A stretch of 34,341 nucleotides of DNA from the IMG/VR virus record IMGVR_UViG_3300025316_000046, positions 1 through 34,341 of that record. One strand, given 5' to 3'. The DNA comes from a virus. Under the pieces are notes generated by a model. It saw only the letters and a list, made by a program, of their open reading frames with translations, was not told the origin of the DNA and searched no databases. A program made the translations under genes and the position numbers. This document shows, in pieces, positions 5,786 to 34,341 of this stretch; positions within the stretch are counted from its first letter, which is position 1, and each line of letters starts with the position of its first letter.

Positions 5786-5791
5786 AGATAA

Positions 5792-5815: not shown

Positions 5816-5832
5816 GCGTTAGGATTAAATGA

Positions 5833-5861
5833 ATTGTACGACGACTAATAATAAAACGCAA
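5833..5861 (-). promoter_or_regulatory. Promoter for the adaptor operon
   Basis: Minus-strand TTGCGT (5856-5861), 17-bp spacer, TACAAT (5833-5838). It sits in the short gap after the 194 aa gene. Predicted start near 5826, about 10 nt before the hairpin. The -35 matches consensus at only three positions. Confidence 0.45.
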
Positions 5862-5862
5862 G

Positions 5863-6447
5863 CTATTCCACTATCCACAATCCCGAAATAGTCCAATTTG
5901 GTAACAAAACTATAACTTTCACCGTTACAAACGAAGCGTTAACATCAGTAACGTCGGCTACTGCGACCAGAGTCCCCGAAGGATATTCAGCATATACAAT
6001 ATGACCTTGGCTATTCTTTAGAAAGGACGTTCCTCCACCGCCGCCTCCTGAACCGTCTATCATCGTTATAGAACCGGAACCTTGAATAATATTCTCCACA
6101 ATGGAACCTGCGATAACAGAGGTCGTGGTACTTGGCTGGAATCGTACGTTAGCTCCAAATATAGCTGTCCCAACAATAAAGGCATGAACACCAGCACTTA
6201 CGTTAAGAGCTCCTCCATAAAAAGTCACCCTAGTTGGGGCTAGTCCTTTATTCGTGAGATTCAAGGTATAGGTTGTTTGATGAGACATGTCTACGCTTCC
6301 TAAAACAGGAGTGGGTATAATGATGCTCGGTTCAGGGATCTTAATATTGTCCACACCATTGTGCCTATGAGGTGGAATCTTAGGAAGTTGAAAGAGCTTC
6401 TTCCGTATCTCCTCATCCACGATTTTTCTTACCTGTTGTTCATTCAT
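5863..6447 (-). CDS. Tail-associated protein with N-terminal helix and HRHNGVD motif
   Basis: 194 aa. Residues 1-20 (NEQQVRKIVDEEIRKKLFQL) form a short helix, followed by PPHRHNGVDNIKIPEPSI, a His-rich segment often seen near the N-terminus of phage tail and fibre proteins. The rest is beta-rich; residues 132-139 are a Gly run (GSGGGGGG) and may be a hinge. The ATG overlaps the stop of the nozzle-like gene (TAATG), so translation is coupled. A structural role in the tail is likely; the exact part is unknown. Confidence 0.65.
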   Translation of the reverse strand: MNEQQVRKIVDEEIRKKLFQLPKIPPHRHNGVDNIKIPEPSIIIPTPVLGSVDMSHQTTYTLNLTNKGLAPTRVTFYGGALNVSAGVHAFIVGTAIFGANVRFQPSTTTSVIAGSIVENIIQGSGSITMIDGSGGGGGGTSFLKNSQGHIVYAEYPSGTLVAVADVTDVNASFVTVKVIVLLPNWTISGLWIVE

Positions 6448-10588: not shown

Positions 10589-10603
10589 GGATTGAGAGTA
10601 ACT

Positions 10604-10810
10604 TTACTTGTAAATTATTGTAAGATCTTCTGCCTGAGTTGCTACGACTACGAACAGCCCAGTAGCAAAGAATATATCGTAGACAAGGGTAACAGGCTGA
10701 GGAGAAGTTGAAACGGTTATCGTCGCCATTTTTGTTCCACTCGTGCTAAGACCATCGTAGAGAGTTATTGTCCCACCCGCAGTCGGAGTATTGATGGTCA
10801 ATCTATACAA
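10604..10810 (-). CDS. Small hypothetical protein, 68 aa
   Basis: Reads MYRLTINTPTAGGTITLYDG then a beta-rich remainder, about 68 aa from a TTG at 10810 (a second TTG three codons on is possible). An AAGGAG lies just upstream and an in-frame TAG lies 5 codons before the TTG, so the start cannot move far. The pattern 'TPTAGGTITLYDGLSTSGTKMATITV' is typical of small phage head or tail surface proteins. It lies within the block bounded by duplicated nozzle-gene starts, next to the glycine-rich fibre. Function unknown. Confidence 0.55.
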   Translation of the reverse strand: MYRLTINTPTAGGTITLYDGLSTSGTKMATITVSTSPQPVTLVYDIFFATGLFVVVATQAEDLTIIYK

Positions 10811-10817
10811 AGCTCCT

Positions 10818-10865
10818 TCACCCTATCACCAGTTCGCTTGAGTTTTTATCGTAGCGATATGACAC
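10818..10865 (-). pseudogene. Relic of the first 15 codons of the nozzle-like gene
   Basis: The minus strand reads VSYRYDKNSSELVIG then TGA, against MSFRYDKASSELVIDGF at the start of the intact gene at 8840. Sixteen bases (10823-10838 versus 8798-8813) are identical. It is too short to be a gene and is best read as a remnant left when the block between 8837 and 10810 came in, or by a recombination that duplicated the gene start. Confidence 0.7.
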
Positions 10866-10870
10866 AGTTT

Positions 10871-11002
10871 TTAGTTTTCGATAAGGAGGGCGTGGGTTAC
10901 AGGGTCGGCATATATAGGAACGGTGGTTTCCTCATCTACGTTAGATACACCGAGAAGACTCGGCACGTCGTTCTCATCTCTTTTGGCTTGATTTTCTGAC
11001 AT
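10871..11002 (-). CDS. 43 aa protein consisting only of the RDENxVP module
   Basis: Reads MSENQAKRDENDVPSLLGVS, continues to YADPVTHALLIEN and stops at 10871. It is a stand-alone copy of the module at the N-terminus of the 115 aa protein (836-1183). The start is 1 nt after the stop of the 178 aa gene. Proteins opening with this module occur in many environmental phages among structural genes; no function is known to me. It could also be an N-terminal stub left after the rest of the gene was replaced, since the nozzle relic follows within 6 nt. Confidence 0.55.
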   Translation of the reverse strand: MSENQAKRDENDVPSLLGVSNVDEETTVPIYADPVTHALLIEN

Positions 11003-11003
11003 A

Positions 11004-11540
11004 TTATACTGGGGTTACTATTCCATTGGAAGAGAGTGGAACCCAACCGCAATAGAAAGTTATCGCACCTGTGGTCGGATTGTCAGAAGTCGTATAAGTA
11101 TATTCTATATCAGTCTGTATACTACCAGTCTTTTGACCGACATGAAACTGTTGGAAATGAGGTAGTCCCGCAGAAGTCGTATTCTCATCGAATATCCCAG
11201 CCGCCGCAGTATCAAGATGAACAGCGACCGATGCTAAAGCATCTTTTTCTATTGCTGACCCAGCAGGCAATGTTGTTGCTGTCGAACCTGTTATCAATGT
11301 AAGTACTGTTCGTGTTGATTGGTCATACAAATCAAAATATACGGCAGTTTGATTTCCAAGTACCGTGGTTACGATTCCATATAAGGCGTTTATGAGGACT
11401 GATCCTGTTATATGGAATAAAGGCACATGGACTGTTCCTGTCGTGGAGAACGTAATGTCTTTTTTGGTCAAAAGACCATTCTGTACGATGGGAACTGCGT
11501 TTTCGTCTCTTGGGAAAGAGCCTCGTTGAGTAGGATTCAT
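11004..11540 (-). CDS. Virion protein, 178 aa, with short RDENxVP motif
   Basis: The N-terminus MNPTQRGSFPRDENAVPIVQNG carries the short RDENxVP motif shared with two other proteins here. The body is beta-rich and hydrophobic with many Thr and Ala residues (VHVPLFHITGSVLINALYGIVTTVLG; TGAITFYCGWVPLSS), like head-surface or tail-tube components. The start overlaps the coiled-coil gene's stop by 1 nt, within a tightly packed run of virion genes. No enzymatic motif is visible; a structural role is inferred. Confidence 0.6.
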   Translation of the reverse strand: MNPTQRGSFPRDENAVPIVQNGLLTKKDITFSTTGTVHVPLFHITGSVLINALYGIVTTVLGNQTAVYFDLYDQSTRTVLTLITGSTATTLPAGSAIEKDALASVAVHLDTAAAGIFDENTTSAGLPHFQQFHVGQKTGSIQTDIEYTYTTSDNPTTGAITFYCGWVPLSSNGIVTPV

Positions 11541-12253
11541 TATTTTTTGTTTTTCACCGCTTGCTCCGCTTTAAGAAGTGAGCGATATTTATCGTTTATA
11601 AAGCGTTCTCGCTTGACTAGCTCCTGAACCGACCGTCTAAGAGCTTCTTCACGCACTTCCAAGTCCATCTGCCAGGCCTTCCACTTGTCTTCTTGCTCTT
11701 TGAAGTTCTTGGTCTTGGCATCTATCTCGCTTTGGACTTGCGCCTCGTGGATTTTAGCCTGATTCAGACGCTCTTGGGCATCTCTTTCCTTGAAGGTCGC
11801 CTCTTTTAAGAGGTCATCGGAGCGTTTCTCTTGGTCAGCGGCTCGTGCCTCAGCATCCAAGATGTCTTTCTCCTTGAAACCGAAGTCAAACTCCTTCTTA
11901 GCAAGCTCACGCTCACGCCTTTCGGTATCATAGAGCTTTTCGTCAAGCTCGTTGAGGCGAGTCATCTTGACTAGCTCCCATTCTTCATCGAAAGGACGTT
12001 TCAAATCGAGGTTTTGCCTTTGGATGATGGCGTTCTCACGCTCAAGCTCGGCTTTCTTCTTCAAAAGGGAATCAATCTCGGCTTGGACGAGGCGCGTGGT
12101 TTCCCCGCGAAACTTCTCCAAGTCGTTCTTTTCCTTTTGGAGAGTAGATCGGACTTCATCTACCTTCTGGGCGATCTTCAAACCTTCGTCAAGCTCGGCT
12201 CGACGCTCATTTCCCTTCTTGGCGAACACCTCGTTTTGAGTCAGTATACGCAT
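11540..12253 (-). CDS. Long coiled-coil protein
   Basis: 237 aa, almost entirely charged helix. Heptad-like patterns run from about residue 15 to 230 (VDEVRSTLQKEKNDLEKFRGETTRLVQAEIDSLLKKKAELEREN...), with a short break near residues 85-95. There are no Cys, signal peptide or membrane segment. The stop and start overlap the neighbours by 1 nt. A coiled-coil rod in this position could be a tail or head-completion component or a small tape-measure-like part, but podoviruses need no tape measure, so the role is open. Confidence 0.65.
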   Translation of the reverse strand: MRILTQNEVFAKKGNERRAELDEGLKIAQKVDEVRSTLQKEKNDLEKFRGETTRLVQAEIDSLLKKKAELERENAIIQRQNLDLKRPFDEEWELVKMTRLNELDEKLYDTERRERELAKKEFDFGFKEKDILDAEARAADQEKRSDDLLKEATFKERDAQERLNQAKIHEAQVQSEIDAKTKNFKEQEDKWKAWQMDLEVREEALRRSVQELVKRERFINDKYRSLLKAEQAVKNKK

Positions 12254-12747
12254 TAGCCTTGTATTACGTCGCCCTTGCCTTGAACCAGAGTCTCTTCCTC
12301 GTCATCTCCTGATAACTTGGTCTTGACTATCTTGGTTACTTTAGCCTTTGGACGCTTCTCGCCCTCGGTTAGGACTTGTTCGGCCTTCATTTGACCAACT
12401 GGAAGCGGACTAAGAGCCTTTTGGATGAATGGGGTCAGGTCATTCTCGGTGTAAGTGACCGCACCTTGGAAATTAACCCCCTCATTCTTCTTATCGAGGT
12501 CTTTAATCTTCTTGCCTTGAAAGAACTCACGCTCGGCAAGCTCCTTAGCGAACTTCTTACGGATGCTCTGTATCTCCAAAGGGGAGAATGGCAGGAGCAT
12601 AGGGGTAGTCTTCAATGCTGGGAAAGTATATTCGATGCCTCCCCATTTAGCGGTGAAGTCCCTATCTGTCCAGTTTGTAAAACGGAACACTCCATCGTAA
12701 TCAGCGGGTAGCTGAGTCACAGGAGCATTAGCTTGGTTCGGATTCAT
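12253..12747 (-). CDS. Hypothetical virion-region protein, 164 aa
   Basis: Residues 12-55 (ADYDGVFRFTNWTDRDFTAKWGGIEYTFPALKTTPMLL) form an aromatic-rich beta segment; 58-90 are a charged helix; the C-terminal third (about 120-164) is rich in Lys and Glu and probably disordered. I recall similar N-terminal segments in uncultured-phage structural regions but cannot name a family. It is coupled to the downstream coiled-coil gene by a 1-nt overlap and may act with it. An unusually structured 110-bp gap lies upstream. Confidence 0.55.
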   Translation of the reverse strand: MNPNQANAPVTQLPADYDGVFRFTNWTDRDFTAKWGGIEYTFPALKTTPMLLPFSPLEIQSIRKKFAKELAEREFFQGKKIKDLDKKNEGVNFQGAVTYTENDLTPFIQKALSPLPVGQMKAEQVLTEGEKRPKAKVTKIVKTKLSGDDEEETLVQGKGDVIQG

Positions 12748-12749
12748 GC

Positions 12750-12857
12750 TTTTTTACGCCTCTCGGCGCGATTATGTCTCTATTCGAGACGATATAATGG
12801 GAGCTTTGCGTGCTCCTCCTTGCCCCCAAGTCGATAGCATTTGGGGACAAAAGGAAC
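12750..12857 (-). promoter_or_regulatory. Structured gap with three or four hairpins
   Basis: After the stop of the 301 aa gene the minus strand can form CCCCAA-N11-TTGGGG, then GGAGC-N7-GCTCC, then GTCTC-N4-GAGAC, then CGCC-GAGA-GGCG followed by TAAAAAAG and the ATG of the next gene. The first could end or slow transcription; the rest look like a folded leader. No coding frame of quality was found. Confidence 0.4.
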
Positions 12858-13763
12858 CTACAAGTTTAGGTAGACCATTCCACACTGAGCGGTTGTCTGC
12901 GTCTGCATGTTGTATGCAATCAGAGGAGCCGTAGTGAGAGTCTGAACGATGAGAGCACCAGCAGTCGTGGAGATACCAAGACCGTAACCACAAGTTGTGG
13001 TCGAAGTGATAGTACCTACGCATGGGCCGTGGGTCTGAATCATTCCGTACTGAGCTACACCATTAGCGGTAAGAGCACCTGACGTACCGTCGTAAGTGGC
13101 GGCGGTTGAAGCGGCCAAAGCATACGTTGCGATACCGATAGGAGAACCAGTCTGAGTAGAACCCGAAGCGACGGCAATGACGCTACCAATGTAAGGATTC
13201 GCAATAAGCGAAACCACAGAGGTCGCATCAAGGGTGGTCTGAATCGGGTCTTCAAGGGTCACTGTTATCTTACCAGTCGTGGCGACGGCGGCAGTATGTG
13301 AAGCAATCTTCAACATCTGACCGATACCTGTCCCAGCGGCGACAATCAAGTAACCTTGGGCGAACTGGTTTACATTGAGTTTGGTCGCTCCATTGGTAAC
13401 ATACACTTGGTATGTACCAGCGGTTGCGGGATAGGCGGTCGGAACCGTCATAGCGAGCTTCTCGAAGGCTGTAACTTCGGCAGGTGACTGCATCGCCGAG
13501 GCCGCAGCGACTGCGACTGCTCCGTTCTGAATCAGGACGAACTCCCGACCATCAGAAGTATCGAACTTCTGGCCCACATAAGTGGCGAAGGAAGAATCGT
13601 AGAATCCAGTACCAGACGCAGGCTGCGGGCCTGTGGCAGGAATCGCTCCATACGCCTGATTTCCACCAGGAGGGGTAGCTGTACCTGTGTAGTTAGAAGT
13701 ACCAGTCGCAGCGTACCACGGACTGAGTGCTCCAACAGAAGGTTTTTGTGTTATACGAGACAT
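12858..13763 (-). CDS. Capsid decoration-like virion protein, 301 aa
   Basis: The core (about 65-210) has the pattern of a protein often found directly after the capsid gene in environmental phages: GREFVLIQNGAVAVAAASAMQSPAEV, then VTNGATKLNVNQFAQGYLIVAAGTGIGQMLKIASH and TGKITVTLEDPIQTTLDATSVVSLIANPY. The last 90 residues contain IQTHGPCVGTI and end GMVYLNL. The ending resembles those of the 177 aa (IVYVNL) and 93 aa (IVYVIY) proteins next to it. Such proteins probably coat or stabilise the head. The start is preceded by TAACTAAATG with no Shine-Dalgarno. Structural role likely; exact site unproven. Confidence 0.65.
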   Translation of the reverse strand: MSRITQKPSVGALSPWYAATGTSNYTGTATPPGGNQAYGAIPATGPQPASGTGFYDSSFATYVGQKFDTSDGREFVLIQNGAVAVAAASAMQSPAEVTAFEKLAMTVPTAYPATAGTYQVYVTNGATKLNVNQFAQGYLIVAAGTGIGQMLKIASHTAAVATTGKITVTLEDPIQTTLDATSVVSLIANPYIGSVIAVASGSTQTGSPIGIATYALAASTAATYDGTSGALTANGVAQYGMIQTHGPCVGTITSTTTCGYGLGISTTAGALIVQTLTTAPLIAYNMQTQTTAQCGMVYLNL

Positions 13764-13798
13764 TTAGTTATTTTTAAGTTATTAAGTTGATAAGCTAA

Positions 13799-14332
13799 TT
13801 AAAGATTCACATACACGATTTTCAACGAACAAGTGGCGGTTGACGTTGCGTTGAAGTTCAACGTCAAGTAGGTATTGACAGGCCATACATTGAAAGCAAA
13901 GTTTCCATTGACAGTCGATGAGGCGACCCATCCAGCAATTATACCTGACTGTGTTGACGTGCCTATGGTATCAAGTGCGACATAATTTGCATTGCCTTGC
14001 AATCCAGTATTAGCTACCGAAGTAGTAGCGACGGTTACTGTCCATGAAGCCAATGTTGCTCCTGTCGCATAAGTCTGAACCAATCCTACAGGGGTACAAT
14101 AAATATTCGAAGAAGAGACTGCTCTATCAGACGCTCCTGTGTTTAATATCGATGTTGAAGTCGATGTTAAAGGAGCGAACACTGTAGTGACTGAATCTAC
14201 GCTATTAAAGTACGCGCCAGAAGATGAACTTGCCCCAGCAAGCATGGTCGTCTTTGGATACATATATCCGCCTACGATAGCTACCACGACTACGACACCA
14301 GCTAACAATTTGAAGAAAGTTGATGTTTTCAT
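13799..14332 (-). CDS. Virion-region protein with N-terminal membrane anchor, 177 aa
   Basis: Residues 7-25 (FKLLAGVVVVVAIVGGYMY) form one clear membrane helix after a Lys-containing start, then a Ser/Thr/Ala-rich beta domain with Cys at about 79 and 168. It is either a secreted and anchored protein or a virion protein with an uncleaved signal. Ser/Thr-rich anchored proteins of this kind are frequent in Patescibacteria. It ends with IVYVNL, similar to the ends of its two neighbours. A membrane anchor inside the capsid gene cluster is unusual. Confidence 0.6.
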   Translation of the reverse strand: MKTSTFFKLLAGVVVVVAIVGGYMYPKTTMLAGASSSSGAYFNSVDSVTTVFAPLTSTSTSILNTGASDRAVSSSNIYCTPVGLVQTYATGATLASWTVTVATTSVANTGLQGNANYVALDTIGTSTQSGIIAGWVASSTVNGNFAFNVWPVNTYLTLNFNATSTATCSLKIVYVNL

Positions 14333-14333
14333 C

Positions 14334-14615
14334 TTAGTATATTACATATACTATTGGTAAGGCTGACGACTCCGAACTTGATGACGTGATAACACACTGT
14401 CCTTGAGTAATTGCATACGCCCATTGGCCTGCTTGTGGTGTAGCTCCTGTTACCCAAATATCTACCTGTGAATTCGTATGAATATACTCGTCCTGAATAG
14501 TCAGAGTATTTCCACCCGCACCCCAAGTTCCTGTATTAACCACTTTTAATGCAAGTGGTGGTAAGGAACTCTGAGGACTTTGGTGACCAAAATTGGTCTG
14601 TGAAGGTGCTGCCAT
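14334..14615 (-). CDS. Small head-surface-like protein, 93 aa
   Basis: Soluble, no signal, beta-rich: ALKVVNTGTWGAGGNTLTIQDEYIHTNSQVDIWVTGATPQAGQWAYAI...IVYVIY. It follows the major capsid gene, where decoration proteins or head fibres are usually encoded. The stop is 1 nt before the start of the membrane-anchored 177 aa gene. No named family recognised. Confidence 0.55.
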   Translation of the reverse strand: MAAPSQTNFGHQSPQSSLPPLALKVVNTGTWGAGGNTLTIQDEYIHTNSQVDIWVTGATPQAGQWAYAITQGQCVITSSSSESSALPIVYVIY

Positions 14616-14700
14616 TTTGTTTTAGGTGCCGTGAGATTTTTAGAACACCTCCCTACTAAGTTGGTTATTCTGTATTCCTTTTACGGTACAAATTAGTCTA

Positions 14701-15753
14701 CTAAACTCCGGCAATTCCGGTGATTACTGCGTTACGGAACGGATCGGTACAGATTAGTTGACCGCCCAAAATCACGAAGCCATTGACGGCTCCCATGTTG
14801 TAGGCGCGAATCCAACCTGTCCATGTGAACGCACCAGGAGGCGAGTACATGGCATCTTCGTATACGTTACCTTCGATGTCGCTTGTCTTCTGCGAAATCG
14901 AGGTTCCTTCCCACCACTTGAGAGCATGGAACTTCAAAAAGTCCGTGTTCAAGAGATAGAAGTTTCCAGTGACGACTTTCTTATCTCGGAAGATAGTCAT
15001 GCCATCCCATACGAGGTCGGCATAACCAGAGGCAGAGGCAGTCTGTGGAGACTTCATCTTCGATGCCTCGAAAGAGGTAATCATATTCCGCTGGAACGGA
15101 GTTAAGAGCTGTTCAAAGTAAGCCCAAGTGGTGTAATCAGTGAGCAACATATCGGGACGAATTGGGCCATCTGAGATGTTGTTCCAAGCAGTACGGACTT
15201 TCAAAAGAGAAATCGTACCTCCCGAAGCGGAGACATAAGCGTTCAGACCTGCATAGGTTGCGCGCGAAAGTCCACCGTAAGAAGCCAAGTCAGAACCGTT
15301 GTCTACGATTCCAGCCAAGCCCATCGGGGCCTTGCCGTTTCCAGCCGTACCATCGCCTTGGAAGTAGTTACCGATATCATCGGCAGCATCTTGAGCGCGA
15401 GCCTTCATGGTCTGTTCCATGAGATCAAGTACCTTTAATGCGCCGTTACCCTCGGCCCTGTTCTGTGAGATATCCGAACCAGCAAGAGCGATATTTGTCG
15501 CGACGAAGGTTGGATAAAAGAACATATTGACCGTGGTAGGAATCTGCGTGATAGGCAGAACATCGAATCCGTTGAACGGGACTGATGCAACTCCCTTTTG
15601 GTACTTGATAGGGAATAGCATCTGCGAACCCTTCCAACGCTCTACCTTGGAAAGAATCTTTCCGAAGAAGAGGTTATCGCGAAGAACCTGATCTACCCAT
15701 GCAGGAGCTAGATACTGGTTGGTCGTTGTTTGGATTAAGTTTGAAGGAGGCAA
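14701..15753 (-). CDS. Major capsid protein (HK97-fold type)
   Basis: 350 aa. Follows the scaffold gene and has the features of podovirus-type major capsid proteins: N-terminal NQYLAPAWVDQVLRDNLFFGKILSKVERWKGSQMLFPIKY, the long helix about 105-130 (ALKVLDLMEQTMKARAQDAADDIGNYFQGDGTAG), a PDMLLTDYTTWAYFEQLLTPFQRN segment, and a C-terminal GFVILGGQLICTDPFRNAVITGI. It should form the shell around the scaffold. The start must be TTG: the frame has an upstream TAA only five codons away and no ATG before about residue 45. A TTG start for the most abundant phage protein is odd; the TTACTAAT just before it resembles the leader of other genes here. Confidence 0.85.
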   Translation of the reverse strand: MPPSNLIQTTTNQYLAPAWVDQVLRDNLFFGKILSKVERWKGSQMLFPIKYQKGVASVPFNGFDVLPITQIPTTVNMFFYPTFVATNIALAGSDISQNRAEGNGALKVLDLMEQTMKARAQDAADDIGNYFQGDGTAGNGKAPMGLAGIVDNGSDLASYGGLSRATYAGLNAYVSASGGTISLLKVRTAWNNISDGPIRPDMLLTDYTTWAYFEQLLTPFQRNMITSFEASKMKSPQTASASGYADLVWDGMTIFRDKKVVTGNFYLLNTDFLKFHALKWWEGTSISQKTSDIEGNVYEDAMYSPPGAFTWTGWIRAYNMGAVNGFVILGGQLICTDPFRNAVITGIAGV

Positions 15754-15776
15754 ATTAGTAATAGATTAGCTAATAA

Positions 15777-16583
15777 TTATAAGTTACCCTTCTGCTGTTG
15801 GTCATAGAGATTATCTATATACCTGCGCGCCATATTGAAGTTCACTGGCCCTTTCGGTGCTTGTGATGGCTGGCGTTGACCTCCCGAAGCCATGCTGCGG
15901 TCGGCTAAAGCCTTCTGCCTTTCGGAAACTTCTCGTGGTTTGCCTTTTTCAGCGAGCTTTCTGTATACATCGAACGAAGACTCAAAGTCGGCATACTCGA
16001 CTATCTCACCATTCTTGTCTTTCGGAGAAATTGTGGTAAGGAAGTCGATGAAACCGTTACGAAGAGCGGCTGATTCCTTAGTATCGCCCGATAAATCGAC
16101 GTTGTATTCGTCTTCTACAGACGAAAAACCATCGTCTATCTCACGGGAATCTTGGGCGGAAACCTCCTCAAGACGCTCATTTTCGGCTTTAATCTCCCCT
16201 AAAGCACGCTTATAGGCATTTTCCTCAGTCTCGGAGAACTTCTTAGAGAACAATTCCTGGGCTAATTTACCTTCGGGAGTGTCTCCAAAGAGCCTTACGA
16301 GGTCTGGATCGATGCTTTTAGTGTCTGCGGCCTTCTCTTTTAGCTCGGATTGGACTCTCAACCGCTCGTTTAGAGCGATATTAGCCTCTTTTTCCGCTTG
16401 GAGCTTAGCCATAAGACGCTTTTCACGTCGATTACGGGGGGAATCGTCATCCTTTCCGTCACCTTCGGGCTTTTCAGCGGGGGGAACGGCAGGTTTGACT
16501 GCTTCCATGAACTGCGAGTCATCATTTAACTTGATATCGTCGCCTTTTAAGGACTCAAGGAACTCTTCTTGTGCGTTGGGCAT
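15777..16583 (-). CDS. Capsid scaffold protein
   Basis: 268 aa from the ATG at 16583 (a TTG 16 codons upstream is less likely). Charged and helical: acidic N-terminus (EEFLESLKGDDIKLNDD), Pro/Asp linker, coiled coil about 55-165 (RREKRLMAKLQAEKEANIALNERLRVQSELKE), acidic middle, and a basic C-terminus (PVNFNMARRYIDNLYDQQQKGNL) that would contact the capsid shell. This composition and the place just upstream of the major capsid gene, 23 nt away, are classic for scaffold proteins. No protease motif is seen, so scaffold removal would be by exit or by another enzyme. Confidence 0.8.
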   Translation of the reverse strand: MPNAQEEFLESLKGDDIKLNDDSQFMEAVKPAVPPAEKPEGDGKDDDSPRNRREKRLMAKLQAEKEANIALNERLRVQSELKEKAADTKSIDPDLVRLFGDTPEGKLAQELFSKKFSETEENAYKRALGEIKAENERLEEVSAQDSREIDDGFSSVEDEYNVDLSGDTKESAALRNGFIDFLTTISPKDKNGEIVEYADFESSFDVYRKLAEKGKPREVSERQKALADRSMASGGQRQPSQAPKGPVNFNMARRYIDNLYDQQQKGNL

Positions 16584-21634: not shown

Positions 21635-23095
21635 TTATTGTTGTGCGCGGCTCATCACCTGACGGGCCGCTCGTTTATATTCTTCGGGAATAGTAATGAC
21701 ACCCTTGGTTGTTAAGATTATCCCAGCCAAAGATATCGCAGTAGAGATAGCATTCTTAACTACCAAAGCGGGATCGTATACTAAGGCACCTGGCAAAAGT
21801 TTGGCAGGCTCCTGTAAAGCCACTCTCATTATCTTTGACTTTAGGTTCTTTGAAGACATAAGAATAGCAATGCCTGCTCCCTTCACTACTCCATCTACTA
21901 GAGCCAACTGAGAAGCATGGGCGGCATCCATAGTCTTCTTTATCTTCCAAGTCAATTCGGATTCCGTATTGGCTCCGACCTTTAGAATGGCAACCTTGGT
22001 ATTCAACCAACCGAGGCGAATCGGGTCTTTTATATTAAATCGGTATTCAGTGATATCTTTCGTACCATTCAAAACTGATTCCTCTTTCGTTGCCTTCCAA
22101 CTTCCACAAGAACCAAGTTCCTTTAGGCTGAACATTTGGAAAGTAAATCCCTTGGTTGAATCAATAGGCGTTGCGCCAGTCATCGCACAGACATCTTCAT
22201 AGATAAGGTCTTTGAAAAGAACTGGTGCTTTGATTATAAGAGTCTTAATCCGATTCGGTTCTCCCTGAATGGACTTCACAGTATTTTGAGCCAATCTAGA
22301 AACTACACCCATCTCGATATCCTCACAGAAAAGAACGACCTCCCATACTCTCTCTTGAATAAGTTTGGCATATATAGGTTCAAGCTGAGAAACAGAAATT
22401 ATCTTATCCTTGCAAACAATTATCCTGGGCTTCTCAACGGAACAGATATCTGGGGCAGTCTGCCAACCAGCGAACATCTTGGCTCCGTGAAGTCGCATTC
22501 CTTCGACGATATCGTAGTAGGTGTCAGGAACAGAAGAGCTCTCGACTTCGATTATCCCTTCCCTTCCAATCTTCGGATAAATCTCCCCGATAAGGTCGCC
22601 GATCTCTTTCGACTCGGAAGCAATCGTAGCGATCTCCCCGACCCTACTTAGTTCGATATCCTTCTTTCCTTTATCTATCTCTTTTAAGATACGTGGAAGT
22701 GCTCCATCCAGTTCCTCTTTAAGAAGAAGCGGAGCTTTCTTAGATTTCAGTCCCTCATTCAGAATAGCGGCAGTTAGGATTATCGTGGTCTTCCTGCCGT
22801 CCCCACATTCTTTCTCTTGCTTGTCGCAGGCCTCTTTGAGGAGGTTGGCTCCAATCTGTTCCGCAGGGTCTCCAAGAATAATAGAGTCTGTAATAACTTT
22901 ACCATCGTTAACAACTCGGTGCCCAGGATAGAGATTTGATTCAATGACAACATTACCACCTTTTGGTCCATAGGTTGGTTTGATGACTTCGCAGACTTTG
23001 TTGATGCCCGAGATGAGCTTGGCTTTGGATGTTTCATAATTTTGGAGGTTATCGGATTGAGCGGGTTGAGCGGATTGAGCGGATTGAGAGGTCAT
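21635..23095 (-). CDS. groL: Phage GroEL-like chaperonin
   Basis: 486 aa, against about 545 for bacterial GroEL. Equatorial domain: VCEVIKPTYGPKGGNVVIE and ECGDGRKTTIILTAAI, equivalent to GroEL 'TLGPKGRNVV' and 'AGDGTTTATVL' with the catalytic Asp kept but TTT changed to RKTT. Apical domain: GREGIIEVESSS...YDIVEGMRLHGAKMFAGW...IIKAPVLFKDLIYEDVCAMTGATPID. C-terminal equatorial part: KKTMDAAHASQLALVDGVVKGAGIAIL, with the Asp equivalent to GroEL D398. The GGM-repeat tail is missing. It presumably folds virion proteins in the cytoplasm. It overlaps the 75 aa gene by 4 nt and lies directly before the terminase genes. A GroES-like gene is about 1 kb away. Confidence 0.9.
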   Translation of the reverse strand: MTSQSAQSAQPAQSDNLQNYETSKAKLISGINKVCEVIKPTYGPKGGNVVIESNLYPGHRVVNDGKVITDSIILGDPAEQIGANLLKEACDKQEKECGDGRKTTIILTAAILNEGLKSKKAPLLLKEELDGALPRILKEIDKGKKDIELSRVGEIATIASESKEIGDLIGEIYPKIGREGIIEVESSSVPDTYYDIVEGMRLHGAKMFAGWQTAPDICSVEKPRIIVCKDKIISVSQLEPIYAKLIQERVWEVVLFCEDIEMGVVSRLAQNTVKSIQGEPNRIKTLIIKAPVLFKDLIYEDVCAMTGATPIDSTKGFTFQMFSLKELGSCGSWKATKEESVLNGTKDITEYRFNIKDPIRLGWLNTKVAILKVGANTESELTWKIKKTMDAAHASQLALVDGVVKGAGIAILMSSKNLKSKIMRVALQEPAKLLPGALVYDPALVVKNAISTAISLAGIILTTKGVITIPEEYKRAARQVMSRAQQ

Positions 23096-25118: not shown

Positions 25119-25397
25119 ATGACAAAAGCTACATATTCAATAGGATCAAACAATGAGACGAAAAAGCTAGAAGCCAAAAAGGCGCTGGCCATTCTCAATA
25201 AGTATTTTGAAGGTCTAACCGCCTTCGAGGTTAACGGAGTTTGGAAGGGCACGCCAGAAAAAACGTTAAGAGTAGAAGTAATAACAGATAAAAGCCGCAA
25301 AAGCTTGCGCCAGATAGCGCATGAGGTTGCGCAGGAATTGAAACAAGAAGCCGTGCTATTAGAGTTCAGCACGCCAGTAATGGAGTTTATAAAATAA
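25119..25397 (+). CDS. Hypothetical early protein, 92 aa
   Basis: Reads TKATYSIGSNNETKKLEAKKALAILNKYFEGLTAFEVNGVWKGTPEKTLRVEVIT, then a helix and a strand: an alternating alpha/beta layout with a Ser-Asn-Asn turn after the first strand. Soluble; no membrane segment or Cys. Similar small proteins opening with 'YSIGSNNxTKKLE' occur in phages and plasmids but I cannot name a function. First rightward gene, so probably expressed earliest. It is bracketed by inverted repeats at 25064-25091 and 25405-25432. Confidence 0.65.
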   Translation: MTKATYSIGSNNETKKLEAKKALAILNKYFEGLTAFEVNGVWKGTPEKTLRVEVITDKSRKSLRQIAHEVAQELKQEAVLLEFSTPVMEFIK

Positions 25398-26117: not shown

Positions 26118-26606
26118 ATGACCAAAATTATGACCAAAACATATATAGGTAAGAGTGGGAAGATCGTAACCAAAACACAGGCAATTGTCGAGTGGACGGG
26201 CCGAACCTTATTCAAGTCAATGATAGTCAGCGGGGTGATATCAATATCCGGATGGTTGCTACTGGGAGGCTATTACTATGCTAAGAGCAATATAGCTCCT
26301 GTAACAGTCTACGCCGAGAAGATCACGGAAGTACCTATCACCACATGGCCGCCGATCCTTACTAGGATATGCAGGGCTGAAAGCGGATTGCATCAGTTCA
26401 AAGCCAACGGGGACGTAATTCGAGGCAGGATAGAGCCATCAGACATAGGTTATTGCCAGATCAATGAGACGATATGGAATGATAAAGCCCGCAAATTAGG
26501 CTTCGATATCTTCACAGAGCAGGGCAATAAAGACATGGCTATGTACCTCTTCAACAATTATGGAACAGAGCCGTGGAATAGCAGCCGAAGTATTTGGAGC
26601 AAATAG
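26118..26606 (+). CDS. Membrane-anchored lytic transglycosylase (lysozyme-like)
   Basis: 162 aa. One membrane helix at about 33-54 (KSMIVSGVISISGWLLLGGYYYA) after a basic start, so the enzyme faces outside or waits in the membrane. The catalytic domain (78-162) has ILTRICRAESGLHQF with the catalytic Glu in AESG (about 88), then DIGYCQINETIW, which matches the 'GxxQIN' motif, ARKLGFDIFTEQGNKDMAMYLFNNYGTEPWNSS. This layout (AESG, GYCQIN, GNxxxAxYLxxxxGxxPW) is that of Slt/lysozyme-fold enzymes, with a short form common in Patescibacteria and their phages. It cuts peptidoglycan for lysis, likely as a signal-anchor-release endolysin. No holin lies next to it. Confidence 0.8.
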   Translation: MTKIMTKTYIGKSGKIVTKTQAIVEWTGRTLFKSMIVSGVISISGWLLLGGYYYAKSNIAPVTVYAEKITEVPITTWPPILTRICRAESGLHQFKANGDVIRGRIEPSDIGYCQINETIWNDKARKLGFDIFTEQGNKDMAMYLFNNYGTEPWNSSRSIWSK

Positions 26607-26700: not shown

Positions 26701-26862
26701 ATGACCAAAGAAAAAATAGCCGTAGCGCTCTATGAGATGAAGCGCCGAGGCTTCGAGCAAATAGAGATACTAGGCGAGCTGTTCAGCACTGATGAGCTTC
26801 TAACGATGTTCTACGGCCGCCGGATTTTACCTAGCGAGGGGCAGGATTTTATTACTAAATAA
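26701..26862 (+). CDS. Small acidic/basic helical protein, 53 aa
   Basis: Starts MTKEKIAVALYEMKRRGFEQ, then IEILGELFSTDELLTMFYGRRILPSEGQDFITK. Mostly helical with a possible helix-turn-helix (IEILGELFSTDELLTMFYG), though short. Stop 27 nt before the amidoligase ATG; a palindrome lies in between. Function unknown. Missed by 60-residue cut-offs. Confidence 0.55.
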   Translation: MTKEKIAVALYEMKRRGFEQIEILGELFSTDELLTMFYGRRILPSEGQDFITK

Positions 26863-26889: not shown

Positions 26890-27825
26890 ATGCCATATAT
26901 AAATAGAGATTGGAAGAGATCACCAGACCTTATAGACACCACACAGGGCGTTATTATGAAATCAACTAGAGCTTTTGGAGTAGAGGTGGAATGTCAATAC
27001 AGTGATGATAGACAGATAGAAGCGTTAGACGAGAATATTGATGAAAATATCGGTATTGGAAGTGATGGTTCTATAAATGGCATAGGCGTTGAAATAAGAA
27101 CACCTCCTGCTTCTGGTAAGAATGGAGAGAACATGATCCGGACGCTTTGTGTGAATCTTAACCGCTATGATTTTGCTGTGGATAATTCTTGCGGCCTCCA
27201 TGTTCATATAGACGCTTCTGATATGAAGATGAAAGTTAATGAGCAGGACGGCTACAAGCTAGCACAAAACTATTGGCTGTTCTATATCGTTATGGACGAT
27301 GTGATTCGCTCCTTCCTCCCACCTTCGAGACGTAAGAATCATTACTGTAAGCCATGCGAGAGCGTCTACAACGCTGTTCACAGTGCCACGTCATTACACG
27401 ATTTGATGAACATATACGAAAGCACCGATCCCACATTACTAGACCCAACATCAATAATAAAATACAAAGACCCGACAAGGTACCGTGGTATCAACCTAAT
27501 ATCTTTATGGAAGGAGTGGCACGCCGAAATCCGCTATCACAACGGCACATTACAAGGCGAGAGAATACTACACTGGGCATACTTGCATTGCTTGATTATG
27601 GATAAAATCATGGACGGAACCATAACCCTTGCATGGATAGAGAGTATGCGAGCCACAAAGGGACTATCAGTTAAAAGCAAGGCTCTATATGCCATATTAG
27701 GAATGAATAAGCCTACAGAGATATACCTCAAGGCTCGTCAAATCAAGTTTAGTACCATAATTTCAAAGCTGCTTTCAACCGAGGTGATCGAAAACCTCCA
27801 ACTATTACAAGATAACTCTAACTAA
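26890..27825 (+). CDS. Amidoligase, first copy (COOH-NH2 ligase family, PF12224-like)
   Basis: 311 aa. The amidoligase fold is a glutamine-synthetase relative that uses ATP to join a carboxylate and an amine. Visible motifs: FGVEVEC at 29-35 (metal-binding Glu pair), SDGSING at 58-64, VEIRTPPASG at 67-76, the family hallmark CGLHVHI at 101-107, FLPPSRR at 142-148, RYRGIN at 197-202 and AEIRYHNGT at 212-220 (Glu and Arg of the active site). No zinc region, in contrast to the second copy. The gene is 1 nt from the amidotransferase gene, so the two probably form a complex: glutamine gives ammonia, which is attached to an unknown acid. Substrate unknown. Start at 26890 lacks a Shine-Dalgarno but has the common CTAACTACC leader; M23 is an alternative. 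Confidence 0.8.
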   Translation: MPYINRDWKRSPDLIDTTQGVIMKSTRAFGVEVECQYSDDRQIEALDENIDENIGIGSDGSINGIGVEIRTPPASGKNGENMIRTLCVNLNRYDFAVDNSCGLHVHIDASDMKMKVNEQDGYKLAQNYWLFYIVMDDVIRSFLPPSRRKNHYCKPCESVYNAVHSATSLHDLMNIYESTDPTLLDPTSIIKYKDPTRYRGINLISLWKEWHAEIRYHNGTLQGERILHWAYLHCLIMDKIMDGTITLAWIESMRATKGLSVKSKALYAILGMNKPTEIYLKARQIKFSTIISKLLSTEVIENLQLLQDNSN

Positions 27826-27826
27826 T

Positions 27827-28816
27827 ATGTGCGGAATCATATCAATCAAACGCCTTGACGGACACGCACCGCACAAGATGTTACATAAGAGATACCAGAT
27901 GCAAAAGAGCCGTGGAACAGAGGGGTTCGGCTTTGTAATGCTCAAGGGCAGCAAGATAGTGGCCTATGAACGAGCTGAAACCGAGGCCGACATCATGGAC
28001 AGGCTAGACCAGCTTCAAGGCGATGAAGTTATCTTCCACCACCGCTTTCCTACTTCAACGGAAAACCTCATGGAGGCGGCACACCCCATTAAGGTATCGC
28101 ATGAGAGCCTCAAACATGACTACTACCTCATACATAACGGGATTATCCGAAATCCCGAGGCGTGGAAGGATATACATGAAAAAGAAGGCTTCACCTATAA
28201 CACTCGGATCGCCGTTGAAAAGAGAACATGGCATCGCTCCATATTCATAAGCGATGAGTTCAATGACAGCGAGGCGCTTGCCATCGAGCTTGCGAAAGAT
28301 CTCGATAAACAAGGCAATGGAATCAATGTGTCCGGCTCCATAGCCTTCGTCATGCTTCAAGCCGACAAGGAAGGCAATGCTACACGCCTATTCTGGGGTA
28401 GGAATGACGGCTACCCACTCAAAATCAACGAGTTGAAAAAAGTGTTTCGCACCATAGCTTCAGAAGGGAACGGCATACTTGTGCCCGAGAATAAGCTTTA
28501 TGAGTTCGACTACACCCGAAAGACAGTCTCATGCCGAGATTATGCAGTGGGGGTACATACCCCAATGGGTTTCACTAACTATCAAAGTTATAACAGTTAT
28601 ACCGATTCAACAGACCTAGTGAACGAAACGGATAACATCAAATACTTTCAATTGCTAGAAAAATACGACAACTTGAGAAGGTCTTACGAAGATTTACTAC
28701 TACAGGGCGTGGACGACCAAAAGATTCTAGCTGATCTCGATGATGTAGAAGCTTTGATAGCCGATATGGAAGCCGAGTTCGACGATACCAAATTAGCAAT
28801 CGTAAATACCAAATAA
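27827..28816 (+). CDS. Class II glutamine amidotransferase, first copy
   Basis: 329 aa. N-terminal Cys nucleophile (MCGIIS, Cys exposed after Met removal). The glutaminase motifs are in the usual order: RGTEGFGF at 29-36, HHRFPTST at 71-78 (like 'HTRWATHG' of GlmS), HPI at 86-88, HNG at 103-105 (oxyanion), NDSEA at 146-150 (like 'SDTEV', binding the Gln amine). After about 260 comes an acidic coiled coil (IKYFQLLEKYDNLRRSYEDLLL...ILADLDDVEALIADMEAEFDD) that may bind its partner. There is no synthase domain of its own (no isomerase, AsnB or PRPP part); ammonia must go to another protein, most likely the amidoligase 1 nt upstream. Acts in the cytoplasm. Confidence 0.85.
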   Translation: MCGIISIKRLDGHAPHKMLHKRYQMQKSRGTEGFGFVMLKGSKIVAYERAETEADIMDRLDQLQGDEVIFHHRFPTSTENLMEAAHPIKVSHESLKHDYYLIHNGIIRNPEAWKDIHEKEGFTYNTRIAVEKRTWHRSIFISDEFNDSEALAIELAKDLDKQGNGINVSGSIAFVMLQADKEGNATRLFWGRNDGYPLKINELKKVFRTIASEGNGILVPENKLYEFDYTRKTVSCRDYAVGVHTPMGFTNYQSYNSYTDSTDLVNETDNIKYFQLLEKYDNLRRSYEDLLLQGVDDQKILADLDDVEALIADMEAEFDDTKLAIVNTK

Positions 28817-28817
28817 C

Positions 28818-30236
28818 ATGCCATCACCAATATTCTATGAGGACAGTGATAATTTACCGATCAGCTTAAATCCGGTAGAACCCGTATCACACTTTGAAAG
28901 TGTACAAATCCCTGGGGGGATATCCATCTCCAATATTCACCAATCCTTTGAAAACTATCTGAATGTAAACTCTCCAACCTCCCAACAAAGAGGGCCTATT
29001 AACTTAGATTGCTATAGTTGTGGGGATCCGATGGTTGAACCTTCCGATTTCAGCTTTTGCGTAGGGAGATTGTGGTGTAGCCAATGTTCTGAAAGAACCC
29101 TTAGAGAATGTCCGGAATGTCACGAGATAAGACTAAACACTGATATCCGGGACGTGTATAACAGCGAGGGCTCGATGTGTATTTATTGTGCCCGTGTAGA
29201 AGAACTTGAACGATGCAGAGACTGCGGCATTTTTTCACAGGATGAACAATACTGCCCGAATTGCAGGGAAGGAAGAGAGGAAGGAGGAATTGAACTTCGT
29301 CCCTACAATCCGCTACCTGAGTTCGTGGAAGATGTACAAGGAGGAAAAACCTTGATTTCAGCTCGACCAATAGGGGTTGAAATGGAAGTGCAATATCCAA
29401 CTCGCAAGAAACTCAACGAGGCCATACATGAATTGCCTGAATATGTGGGCGTAGGCACTGATTCATCAATCTCTGGGAACGGGGTTGAAATACGCCTACC
29501 TCCAGCAAGCGGGGTAGTGGCTGAGAATATGACGAAAAACGTATGCGATACGCTCAAAAAGCATGGATTCAAAACCGATTCATCCTGTGGACTACATATC
29601 CACTTTGAAATGAAGGATATAGACGATTTAACAGCTAGTAACCAACTGGTAGCTATCCAAAGCCTTTGGATGTTATATCTGAGCTTCGAGGATGTTATCC
29701 TATCTTTTTTGCCGCCTTCACGACGATCTTCGAGGTATTGTAAGGTCTTTCGATCTGAATACCGTCTAGACGAGATAGACAACTGTAAGAATATGGACCA
29801 AATAGAGCGAACGTGGTATCGAGCAGAGAATATGCACCAAATTGTGTCCGCCAAGTCTGATAGCCACCATGAAAGCCGCTACCGAGGTATAAACTTACAT
29901 CCTTTGTTTTCAGCAAGGCACATGGAGGTCCGCTACCACACTGGAACAATACAGGCCAACAAAATACTACAATGGGCCAACCTACATACGAGAATGATAG
30001 ACATGTCCATAAATGGAGAGTTACTTTGTAACGATATTGAATGGTATAAAACACAATTGAACGACACGGACCTAAATCGAAAAACGAACAGGCTGTTTTC
30101 TCTTCTAAAACTGTCTAATAAAACCCGAGGATACTTCCTAGCGAGACAAGCCGCTTTCTTCGCTGCGCCTAAGTTTACCAAAAATGCTGACTTCGAGTCG
30201 GGAGTCGCTGAGCTTAATGCTGAAAAGGAAATCTAA
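28818..30236 (+). CDS. Amidoligase, second copy, with N-terminal zinc-ribbon region
   Basis: 472 aa. Residues 1-60 are unstructured. Residues 63-150 carry at least six Cys pairs: CYSC (65-68), CSQC (87-90), CPEC (98-101), CIYC (121-124), CRDC (133-136), CPNC (146-149), as tandem zinc ribbons or a RING-like cluster that could hold a nucleic acid or protein substrate. The amidoligase follows: IGVEMEV (185-191), TDSSISGNGVEIRLPPASG (about 214-232), CGLHIHF (257-263), FLPPSRR (297-303), RYRGIN and MEVRYHTGTIQ. Clearly a paralogue of the first copy over about 280 residues. It is 1 nt from the preceding gene and overlaps the next (TAATG). Zinc-ribbon fusion suggests a different target for this pair. 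Confidence 0.8.
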   Translation: MPSPIFYEDSDNLPISLNPVEPVSHFESVQIPGGISISNIHQSFENYLNVNSPTSQQRGPINLDCYSCGDPMVEPSDFSFCVGRLWCSQCSERTLRECPECHEIRLNTDIRDVYNSEGSMCIYCARVEELERCRDCGIFSQDEQYCPNCREGREEGGIELRPYNPLPEFVEDVQGGKTLISARPIGVEMEVQYPTRKKLNEAIHELPEYVGVGTDSSISGNGVEIRLPPASGVVAENMTKNVCDTLKKHGFKTDSSCGLHIHFEMKDIDDLTASNQLVAIQSLWMLYLSFEDVILSFLPPSRRSSRYCKVFRSEYRLDEIDNCKNMDQIERTWYRAENMHQIVSAKSDSHHESRYRGINLHPLFSARHMEVRYHTGTIQANKILQWANLHTRMIDMSINGELLCNDIEWYKTQLNDTDLNRKTNRLFSLLKLSNKTRGYFLARQAAFFAAPKFTKNADFESGVAELNAEKEI

Positions 30237-31321
30237 TGTGCGGAATAATCTCAGTAAACAGGTACGATACCCTTCCAGCACGGAAGATGGTCACAAGGCT
30301 GTATCGAAAACAAAAAACGAGAGGCCAAGAGGGATTTGGCTTCGTGTCATTTCGGGCGGGCCAGCTCGAGGAGTTTCGCAAAAGCGAAGAAGAGGGACCG
30401 ATATTAGAGGAATTGAAAAAGACAGTAGGAAACGAAATCCTTTTCCATCATCGCAACCCAACTTCGACGCCAAACTTCTGGGAGACTGCTCACCCCATAC
30501 ATGTTAGCCATGAGAGTTTGAAACATGATTACTACGTTGTCCACAATGGCTCCATCAATGATATAGATAATAAGAAATACCACGATGAACATGTTAAGGC
30601 GGGATTCATATATTCAACCCTAGTCAAAAATCAATGGACTACTTCAAAGGGAAGCGTCTACACGATGGAAAGCAAATGGAATGATAGCGAGATGTTCGCT
30701 ATAGAACTGGCGAAGGACTTAGACAAGGGACAGGCCGGGATTCGACACGTGTGGGGCAAAATAGCTTTCGTATGTATTCAAACCACAAAGGAGGGAGCTC
30801 CTGTTTCAAAGTTCTGGGGCCGGAACTGCGGATCGCCATTAAAAACTTTCTACCACACGAACTTCACATCTGTGACTTCGGAAGGAAAAGGAACCGAGGT
30901 TCCTGTAGATACCTTGTATATCCATGACTACACATCCAATAAGATAACTTCAAAATCTTATTTTGTAGGATATCATTATGAGTACAAGGGGAACTACGAC
31001 CACAATGAAGCGGAATGGGACAAAGATACAAAAACATGGACTACTAAAAAGAAACCGGCCTTAATTGAACAACACGGCAACGGTGTCCTTGATGAAATGT
31101 TCGCCTCCCACTTACCGATTGACCAAGTGGCGATTGAAAAAGAGGAAGCTGATATCAAAAGATTCACCGAGATCGCCGACCAACTTCACGAGGTGAAAAA
31201 GCAACTTGAGGAAGATATAGACGTTGAGGAACGAGGCTACCTTCTCAACCACGCCGCCAACCTTGAAATGATTTTGGATGAAATATCTGCGAGATACCCG
31301 ACCATAAAAGCCTTAGGCTAG
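30236..31321 (+). CDS. Class II glutamine amidotransferase, second copy
   Basis: 361 aa, paralogue of the one at 27827. Motifs: MCGIIS (Cys2), RGQEGFGF at 29-36, HHRNPTST at 71-78, HPI at 86-88, HNG at 103-105, NDSEM at 149-153. A C-terminal coiled coil (about 300-361; VAIEKEEADIKRFTEIADQLHEVKKQLEEDIDVEERGYLLNHAANLEMILDEI) parallels that of the first copy. In the middle an extra segment of about 25 residues (YHYEYKGNYDHNEAEWDKDTKTWTTKKKP) is not in copy one. The start overlaps the amidoligase stop by 1 nt, so both are made together. All key residues are present in both copies, so both should be active. Confidence 0.85.
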   Translation: MCGIISVNRYDTLPARKMVTRLYRKQKTRGQEGFGFVSFRAGQLEEFRKSEEEGPILEELKKTVGNEILFHHRNPTSTPNFWETAHPIHVSHESLKHDYYVVHNGSINDIDNKKYHDEHVKAGFIYSTLVKNQWTTSKGSVYTMESKWNDSEMFAIELAKDLDKGQAGIRHVWGKIAFVCIQTTKEGAPVSKFWGRNCGSPLKTFYHTNFTSVTSEGKGTEVPVDTLYIHDYTSNKITSKSYFVGYHYEYKGNYDHNEAEWDKDTKTWTTKKKPALIEQHGNGVLDEMFASHLPIDQVAIEKEEADIKRFTEIADQLHEVKKQLEEDIDVEERGYLLNHAANLEMILDEISARYPTIKALG

Positions 31322-33030: not shown

Positions 33031-33410
33031 TAAAAAAAGCTATACAATTATACGAGAAAGGAATGACCCAATCAGAGGTTGCGGCTAAACTTGAAACTAC
33101 GCAAAAAGTTATCTGGAGATTATTCAAAAATGCTGGGTACAAATGTCGAGTGGCTAAAAAGAGAAATCAATTTGGTGAGAATAATTCCTCATGGAAAGGG
33201 GACAGGGCTGGATATAAGGCACTCCATTATCGTTTATATAAAGCAAGGGGTCGTCCTCAAAAATGCGAAGTGTGTGGGTGTTCCAAAAGAAATCGTAGAT
33301 ACCAGTGGGCAAATTTAACAGGAAAATTATCAGACTTAAATGACTACAAGCGAATGTGTGAATCGTGTCACGCCAAGTACGATAAAAAGATTAAAAATAT
33401 AACAAAATGA
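33027..33410 (+). CDS. HNH homing endonuclease
   Basis: 127 aa. N-terminal helix-turn-helix (residues 1-40: ALQLYEKGMTQSEVAAKLETTQKVIWRLFKNAG style, TQSEVAAKLETT as helix-turn-helix), then a linker, then the HNH domain with KCEVCGC (about 79-85), RYQWANLTGKLSDLNDYKRMCESCHAKYD, where CEVC and CESC hold a zinc and the central Asn and His form the nuclease site. The 'YxWANLTG' pattern is that of phage HNH enzymes that spread into neighbouring genes. It sits between a broken start and the intact start of the same methyltransferase and overlaps both (ATGA each). Mobile DNA is the likely interpretation. Confidence 0.8.
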   Translation: MIKKAIQLYEKGMTQSEVAAKLETTQKVIWRLFKNAGYKCRVAKKRNQFGENNSSWKGDRAGYKALHYRLYKARGRPQKCEVCGCSKRNRRYQWANLTGKLSDLNDYKRMCESCHAKYDKKIKNITK

Positions 33411-34341
33411 AGTATCTCGATTTATTTTCAGGAATAGGTGGCTTCACTTTAGGGATACAACAAGCATATGACATGGCTAATCGACACAAAGAACAGGGGC
33501 AAGCCGAGGTGGTACTGGGAACAAAGCATCAGCTTACAGGCGAGTTTATACAAGGAACCCCCACTTGTATTGGTTACTCCGAAATCGACAAGTACGCAAC
33601 ACAAATTTATCAAAAGCACTTCCCCTCATATCACAACTATGGAGACATCACCAAAATCAAAGCCGAAGACCTACCAGAATTTGACCTTATTGTCGGAGGC
33701 TTTCCGTGCCAGAGCTTTTCAATCGCAGGAAAGCGGGGAGGTTTCGCAGATACTAGGGGAACTCTTTTCTTCGACATCGCCAGAATCATTAAAGCTAAAC
33801 AACCTCGCTTACTACTCCTTGAAAACGTCAAAGGGCTTCTATCTCACGACAAAGGCGACACATTCAGAACTATCATCGCAACCCTTGATGAATTGGGGTA
33901 TGACCTCCAATGGCAAGTGCTTAACAGCAAGAATTTCGGCGTCCCCCAGAATCGGGAAAGAGTGTTCATTGTCGGACATCTTAGAGGAACACCCAGACCA
34001 AAAGTATTTCCTATCGGACAGGGTGATAAAGTCGATGATCAGGTTCGAGAAGTCGAAGATAAAGAAGGGGCAAGGTCATCGTGTCTTAATACACGATACA
34101 GCCAGCGATGGACGGACGAGACCTATATCAGAGTGCCAGAAGCCACCAAGAAAGGTTACGCCGAAGCGACCGTCGGCCAATCGATAAATCTGTCAGTCCC
34201 CAATAGCAAGACGAAACGAGGACGAGTAAGCGATGTCGCACAAACAATTGATACTGGTATGCAACAACACACCTTAACAAAAGACATGAAGATTCGCCGC
34301 CTAACTCCTCTTGAATGTGAACGCTTACAAGGTTTTCCCGA
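33407..34341 (+). CDS. DNA C5-cytosine methyltransferase (runs off right edge)
   Basis: 311 residues visible, open at the window edge. Motif I DLFSGIGGF (5-13); motif II-like IGYSEIDKYATQIY; motif IV VGGFPCQSFS with the catalytic Cys; ENVKGLL (motif VI); NSKNFGVPQNRERVFIVG (motif VIII); then a target-recognition region with SQRWTDETYIRVPEATKK and, at the very end, RRLTPLECERLQGFP (motif IX). About 30 extra residues (DMANRHKEQGQAEVVLGTKHQL...) lie between motif I and motif II. It should methylate cytosine in phage or host DNA, probably to avoid restriction; no partner restriction gene is visible. The ATG overlaps the HNH stop. Confidence 0.9.
   Translation, partial: MKYLDLFSGIGGFTLGIQQAYDMANRHKEQGQAEVVLGTKHQLTGEFIQGTPTCIGYSEIDKYATQIYQKHFPSYHNYGDITKIKAEDLPEFDLIVGGFPCQSFSIAGKRGGFADTRGTLFFDIARIIKAKQPRLLLLENVKGLLSHDKGDTFRTIIATLDELGYDLQWQVLNSKNFGVPQNRERVFIVGHLRGTPRPKVFPIGQGDKVDDQVREVEDKEGARSSCLNTRYSQRWTDETYIRVPEATKKGYAEATVGQSINLSVPNSKTKRGRVSDVAQTIDTGMQQHTLTKDMKIRRLTPLECERLQGFP

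Follow-up and report, generated by a model that had tools for sequence, protein, structure and literature searches.

The 34,341-base virus record IMGVR_UViG_3300025316_000046, analyzed over its whole length and hereafter called the window, is possibly a fragment and carries two consecutive pairs of amidoligase (AL) and class II glutamine amidotransferase (GAT) genes in the order AL1-GAT1-AL2-GAT2. Each pair is likely to form a two-subunit, glutamine-dependent amidoligase. The quartet as a whole is read here, with confidence a little short of even, as a kit for glutamine-dependent amidation of carboxylates that has been doubled to serve two host substrates or sites, most likely in the cell wall. 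This kind of cassette is already known in phages; it is the doubled AL-GAT form that is new.

The four proteins of the quartet

The genes of the cassette, all on the plus strand, are as follows.
26890..27825, plus strand: AL1, amidoligase of family PF12224, 311 amino acids (aa), without a Cys-rich N-terminal module (PF12224 3e-19, 70 bits)
27827..28816, plus strand: GAT1, class II (N-terminal nucleophile, Ntn) glutamine amidotransferase with N-terminal Cys2 (partial NCBIfam matches, conserved residues)
28818..30236, plus strand: AL2, amidoligase of family PF12224, 472 aa, with a Cys-rich (six CxxC) N-terminal module (PF12224 6.5e-24, model)
30236..31321, plus strand: GAT2, class II (Ntn) glutamine amidotransferase with a predicted C-terminal helical hairpin (AlphaFold2 model)

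As proposed in the first-pass annotation of this DNA, the four reading frames lie nearly butt-joined across 26890-31321, the junctions being 1 nucleotide (nt), 1 nt and finally a 1-nt overlap. The amidoligase identity suggested at that time was borne out by the PF12224 (Amidoligase_2) profile, against which AL1 scored 70 bits and AL2 86 bits, compared with a cut-off of 22. The two proteins share 34% identity. In a model of AL2 (pLDDT, the model's own confidence score, 77; 14-row alignment), residues 176-472 matched the YbdK family at VIA Z 13.7/14.2, and glutamine synthetase, glutamate-cysteine ligase and Dop were matched at VIA Z 11-13 (Dop 11.6); PafA was included among the Foldseek matches. 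A sequence search of solved structures gave nothing useful for AL2. From the model, AL2 is assigned the fold of glutamine synthetase and gamma-glutamyl ligases. Across 14 ALs, D215, E224, H260, H262, R302, E370 and R372 (AL2 numbering) are invariant, and the E.E motif of the core (E188, E190) is more than 90% conserved. An ATP-dependent carboxylate-amine ligase activity is predicted for the ALs.

For the amidotransferases, GATase_6 (PF13522), to which phage GATs are generally referred in Pfam, yielded 13 bits with GAT1 and 12.8 bits with GAT2, both under the gathering cut-off of 27. NCBIfam models of the GlmS/PurF N-termini also matched both GATs weakly and below cut-off, the partial matches being 1e-7 to 2e-6 for GAT1, and the sequence search of solved structures returned weak PurF matches only, for GAT1. 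With the GATase_6 profile under its cut-off, class II membership was assigned because of fold and residues. The AlphaFold2 model of GAT2 (pLDDT 82, 13-row alignment) matched PurF at Z 24.4 (210 residues, 2.2 A), GlmS at Z 23.1, EgtC at Z 19.9 and AsnB at Z 18.7, and by this model GAT2 has the class II glutaminase fold. Among 13 GATs, the MCG start containing Cys2, Arg73, and the PTS, HNG and NDSE motifs are invariant. Both the N-terminal Cys and the retention of catalytic residues in the two pairs had been read from the letters alone, and these results sustain them, the core residues being invariant or nearly so in the 13 GATs and 14 ALs. A coiled coil had also been proposed at the end of both amidotransferases; this agrees with a helical hairpin predicted for GAT2 at residues 295-353, the model covering GAT2 alone. 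None of the four cassette proteins matched a PADLOC model (2023 library) at E 0.01.

A second quartet, related cassettes and known systems

When IMG/VR was scanned with an alignment of GAT1 and GAT2, a 50,978-base record, L003, was found that carries AL1-GAT1-AL2-GAT2 in the order found in the window, at 34-49% identity (window against L003 counterparts: AL1 48-49%, GAT1 44%, GAT2 48%). Because the same four genes recur there, the quartet is not a product of chance; chance similarity between the two pairs is likewise ruled out by the E-values together with the L003 quartet. The earlier view that one pair had been doubled and had diverged is thereby confirmed, AL1 and AL2 being 34% and GAT1 and GAT2 47% identical. 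When the two records were compared by phmmer, matches were seen for the cassette, GroEL, a methyltransferase, an SSB-like protein and two proteins encoded at the window's left end, and none for terminase or portal; by this comparison the window phage and L003 appear otherwise distant.

In the AL tree, the AL1 pair (100/99) and the AL2 pair (98/97) were recovered and all four proteins grouped together (90/88). In the GAT tree, the GAT2 pair (96/89) and the group of all four (83/80) were recovered; the GAT1 pair did not separate out, yet it was not rejected (p 0.29). The simplest history suggested by these trees is a single duplication of the whole pair, predating the split between the window phage and L003. 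Ahead of the core, AL2, the L003 AL2 and several single-pair relatives have six CxxC motifs, and neither AL1 has any. This module, which appears to be of the zinc type, would most simply have been lost in AL1, since it is present in both AL2s and in single-pair relatives and absent from both AL1s.

Wider alignments were required to detect further relatives in IMG/VR: single-protein scans with GAT1 and AL2 and a scan with the two-row AL1/AL2 alignment gave no matches, and tblastn of GAT1 and GAT2 against 50,697 annotated phages found none. The wider scans, with local profiles, produced 63 GAT clusters at 90% identity, 45 of which adjoin a detected AL, a count that pools loci retrieved by either kind of query, AL or GAT, and is not an unbiased frequency. 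An adjacent AL and GAT is an ordinary arrangement for phages. Doubled copies were found in L003 and in L011, where two AL-GAT pairs at 9080-16417 stand 3.2 kb apart; L076 combines two GATs with a single AL. In the Porphyromonas phage PP754931.1 (L058), an amidoligase at 5626-6573 follows the portal region, with structural genes around it and no annotated GAT. AL-GAT or GAT loci also occur on contigs of metagenome-assembled genomes named Paceibacterota (L062) and Aenigmatarchaeota (L061), which may be prophage or misbinned phage.

Partner genes recur in the related cassettes. GGACT (PF06094) is present in 20 of 43 related records, and Peptidase_C26 (PF07722) in 3 of 40, each time near an AL or GAT and never alongside GGACT (L076 6785-7618 and L094 4850-5704, both confirmed by hmmscan, and the L101 record). 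Both families act on gamma-glutamyl bonds. Their mutual exclusion is no more than suggestive, with three Peptidase_C26 records and an estimated probability of about 0.14 by chance. PF14395 and ATP-grasp proteins recur as well; an ATP-grasp profile built from L009 and L010 found members in many AL-GAT phages and none in the window or L054-L056. Not one of GGACT, Peptidase_C26, PF14395 and ATP-grasp was detected in the window or the L003 record, both of which may be incomplete.

The first-pass annotation had put the quartet forward as a candidate undescribed system, and in this respect it has to be corrected. Adjacent amidoligase and class II amidotransferase genes have been reported in LUZ24-like, tf, RIO-1-like and marine OM43 phages, and both genes are contained in the UFV-P2 gene table (PMC3890496). 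Citing papers credit the phiEco32-type cassettes to Iyer et al. 2009 (PMC10580990, PMC5498523), and the OM43 paper and PMC11318856 cite the same work for a proposed role in the cell wall or superinfection. Cassettes of the phiEco32/LUZ24/RIO-1 type resemble the window in having a PF12224 amidoligase near a class II GAT within a block of non-structural genes, and AL and GAT are adjacent in the window as they are in the phiEco32 type. The phiEco32-type cassettes as described there have one GAT with a PF14395 ligase, an ATP-grasp protein and a gamma-glutamyl cyclotransferase; the window instead carries the AL-GAT pair twice, and no such partner was detected in it. The full phiEco32-type set is found in L009, whose GAT is 36-38% identical to the window GATs. 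In the part of the account seen, the phi13 prophage of Clostridium clostridioforme LM41 (PMC11318856) has two amidoligase open reading frames (ORFs) close together, as in the window; unlike the window, it is listed there with a gamma-glutamyl cyclotransferase and without listed paired GATs.

Likenesses also extend to cellular systems. In ergothioneine synthesis, EgtA and EgtC combine a gamma-glutamyl ligase, fold-related to AL, with a partner of class II GAT fold; EgtC, however, hydrolyses a gamma-glutamyl bond, and the GAT2 model is nearer the PurF/GlmS glutaminases. MurT/GatD and AsnB/LtsA carry out the glutamine-dependent amidation of peptidoglycan carboxylates, a likeness to the role proposed here for AL-GAT. 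MurT/GatD is composed of a Mur ligase and a class I GAT, while LtsA/AsnB is a class II GAT fused to an asparagine-synthetase domain, and neither is known to use a ligase of glutamine-synthetase fold. The window differs from MurT/GatD on both counts, its ligase belonging to PF12224 and its GAT to class II by fold.

Surroundings of the quartet

The neighbouring genes referred to below are as follows.
21635-23095: phage GroEL, beyond the late genes
26118..26606, plus strand: probable SLT-like (lytic transglycosylase-like) protein, probably membrane-anchored, upstream of the cassette
26701..26862, plus strand: 53-aa ORF, 27 nt upstream of AL1, conserved with L003
31427..31612, plus strand: 61-aa helix-turn-helix protein, downstream of GAT2 (HTH_28, 30 bits against a cut-off of 25)

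It had been stated that no substrate peptide or cell-wall enzyme lies nearby, a statement contradicted by the two genes directly upstream. The 53-aa ORF has a counterpart at the same place in L003 (blastp 33% over 57 aa, E 1e-7), the local score being 81 compared with a maximum of 51 in 2000 shuffles. It was absent from the other loci searched, so that its conservation is confined to the two quartet phages, and it matched no Pfam or PHROG family. It is possibly a fifth component of the cassette, acting as a partner, regulator or peptide substrate. The 61-aa ORF on the other side of the cassette is 60% identical over 55 aa to L003 14466-14663; it was ruled out as a peptide substrate, being a helix-turn-helix protein by its HTH_28 match.

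The ORF at 26118-26606 has an apparent N-terminal membrane segment and matched nothing in Pfam, and a sequence search of solved structures gave nothing useful for it. Its nearest matches found, at 39-45% identity, are proteins from 4 of 287 genomes in the phylum to which L062 (Paceibacterota) belongs; 299 genomes from the L060 phylum gave none. For two of these proteins, and for a related phage lyZ1, there are sub-cut-off matches to SLT-type Pfam models, and the alignment keeps E88 and GxxQI. From these likenesses the product is probably a transglycosylase-like wall enzyme, and this single gene provides a lead towards a Patescibacteria host for the window phage.

Regarding the overall layout, the late genes, among them those for the major head protein, portal and large terminase, occupy the minus strand, and early-type genes run on the plus strand from approximately 25119, so that the cassette stands close to the start of the early-type strand, on the other strand from the late genes. 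Early expression of the cassette would fit this gene layout, from which the timing is read; promoter-like sites were not more frequent than in shuffles. PF00118 (GroEL) was present in 5 of 20 AL-GAT records; the three doubled records of that set (window, L003, L011) all have it. At 25119-25397 there is a weak, sub-cut-off similarity to S-adenosylmethionine lyase, with relatives in L009 and L011, and this is possibly an early anti-restriction gene. At 33407-34339, a C5 cytosine methyltransferase-like gene, so called from a reading by eye, is cut by the end of the record and is preceded by an HNH-like ORF at 33027.

Proposed reaction, targets and alternatives

In the reaction proposed here, the GAT, an Ntn glutaminase with Cys2 as its nucleophile, would free ammonia from glutamine, and the AL, with its glutamine-synthetase-like fold, would activate a carboxylate with ATP as an acyl-phosphate. 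Ammonia transferred between the subunits, or another amine, would then be joined by the AL to the activated carboxylate. Following a single duplication before the window phage and L003 separated, the copies would have diverged, AL2 keeping the Cys-rich module and AL1 losing it. Two carboxylate substrates or sites would be modified early in infection, most plausibly in peptidoglycan precursors, where D-Glu could be amidated at its alpha-carboxyl and diaminopimelate at its free carboxyl, and the altered envelope would guard against competing phages or lytic enzymes. A match of two pairs to two precursor carboxylates is an attractive hypothesis, and two different targets would fit both the age of the duplication and the disappearance of the module from AL1. 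A wall target is favoured because GGACT and Peptidase_C26 occur in related cassettes, an SLT-like gene lies upstream and a cell-wall role has been proposed in the literature. Considered on its own, an envelope carboxylate as the target is plausible and still doubtful.

Several results weigh against this proposal. No source consulted demonstrates a substrate or activity for AL-GAT pairs of phages. With no export signal noticed on either type of protein, a wall target would need to be a cytosolic precursor. The SLT-like gene was not seen beside the L003 cassette. Since GGACT, Peptidase_C26, PF14395 and ATP-grasp went undetected in the quartet records, the hint of gamma-glutamyl chemistry comes from relatives only. 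Furthermore, as a match to the GAT2 fold EgtC comes close to the amide donors.

The last of these points leads to an alternative in which GAT is an EgtC-like gamma-glutamyl hydrolase and AL a gamma-glutamyl ligase resembling glutamate-cysteine ligase, the pair adding a gamma-glutamyl group and later removing it. The best fold neighbours of AL2 are indeed the gamma-glutamyl ligase relatives of YbdK, EgtC matches the GAT2 model at Z 19.9, and enzymes of gamma-glutamyl bonds (GGACT, Peptidase_C26) stand in related cassettes. Nevertheless, the GAT2 model lies closer to the glutaminases PurF and GlmS (Z 23-24), which also supply the NCBIfam matches, and a second remover of gamma-glutamyl groups would be redundant in the GGACT cassettes; this alternative is considered distinctly unlikely. 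Somewhat more weight, at the level of an unlikely but serious contender, is given to modification of proteins or peptides at a side-chain or C-terminal carboxyl, either of an early host protein or of the upstream 53-aa product, the Cys-rich module of AL2 recognising the protein. Such a role would suit the matches of AL2 to Dop (Z 11.6) and PafA (Foldseek), glutamine-synthetase-fold enzymes that act on protein, the Cys-rich modules borne by the ALs of most single-pair relatives, and the 53-aa ORF directly before AL1, whose conservation is limited to the quartet phages. The small ORF could, however, be a regulator, single-pair cassettes occur without it, and the two 53-aa products show general similarity with no modification motif seen, none having been sought. 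A narrower form, in which a five-gene peptide or protein amidation system uses the 53-aa product as its ribosomal substrate or carrier and the two pairs make two successive, different carboxylate modifications on it, is highly improbable.

The second copy could instead serve dosage or regulation, with one substrate for both pairs. All conserved catalytic residues are kept in both copies, which speaks for this reading, but the copies are only 34% and 47% identical and their copy-specific architecture is kept in two distant phages, which makes the explanation improbable. Amidation of a carboxylated base, giving a modified nucleotide or DNA base that protects phage DNA, would accord with the early-type position and with the C5 cytosine methyltransferase-like gene at 33407. 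Among the window's genes, however, none was recognised as carboxylating bases or hypermodifying nucleotides, and the partners that recur in relatives belong to the gamma-glutamyl and ATP-grasp enzymes; the idea is given very little credence.

The doubled kit for carboxylate amidation, with the wall as its most likely site, continues to be preferred. The recurrence of Peptidase_C26 in cassettes without GGACT makes gamma-glutamyl chemistry the direction to explore. The window and L003 represent a stripped form of the cassette, AL and GAT twice over, in which the chemistry may be approached two proteins at a time and the choice of substrate compared between the pairs.

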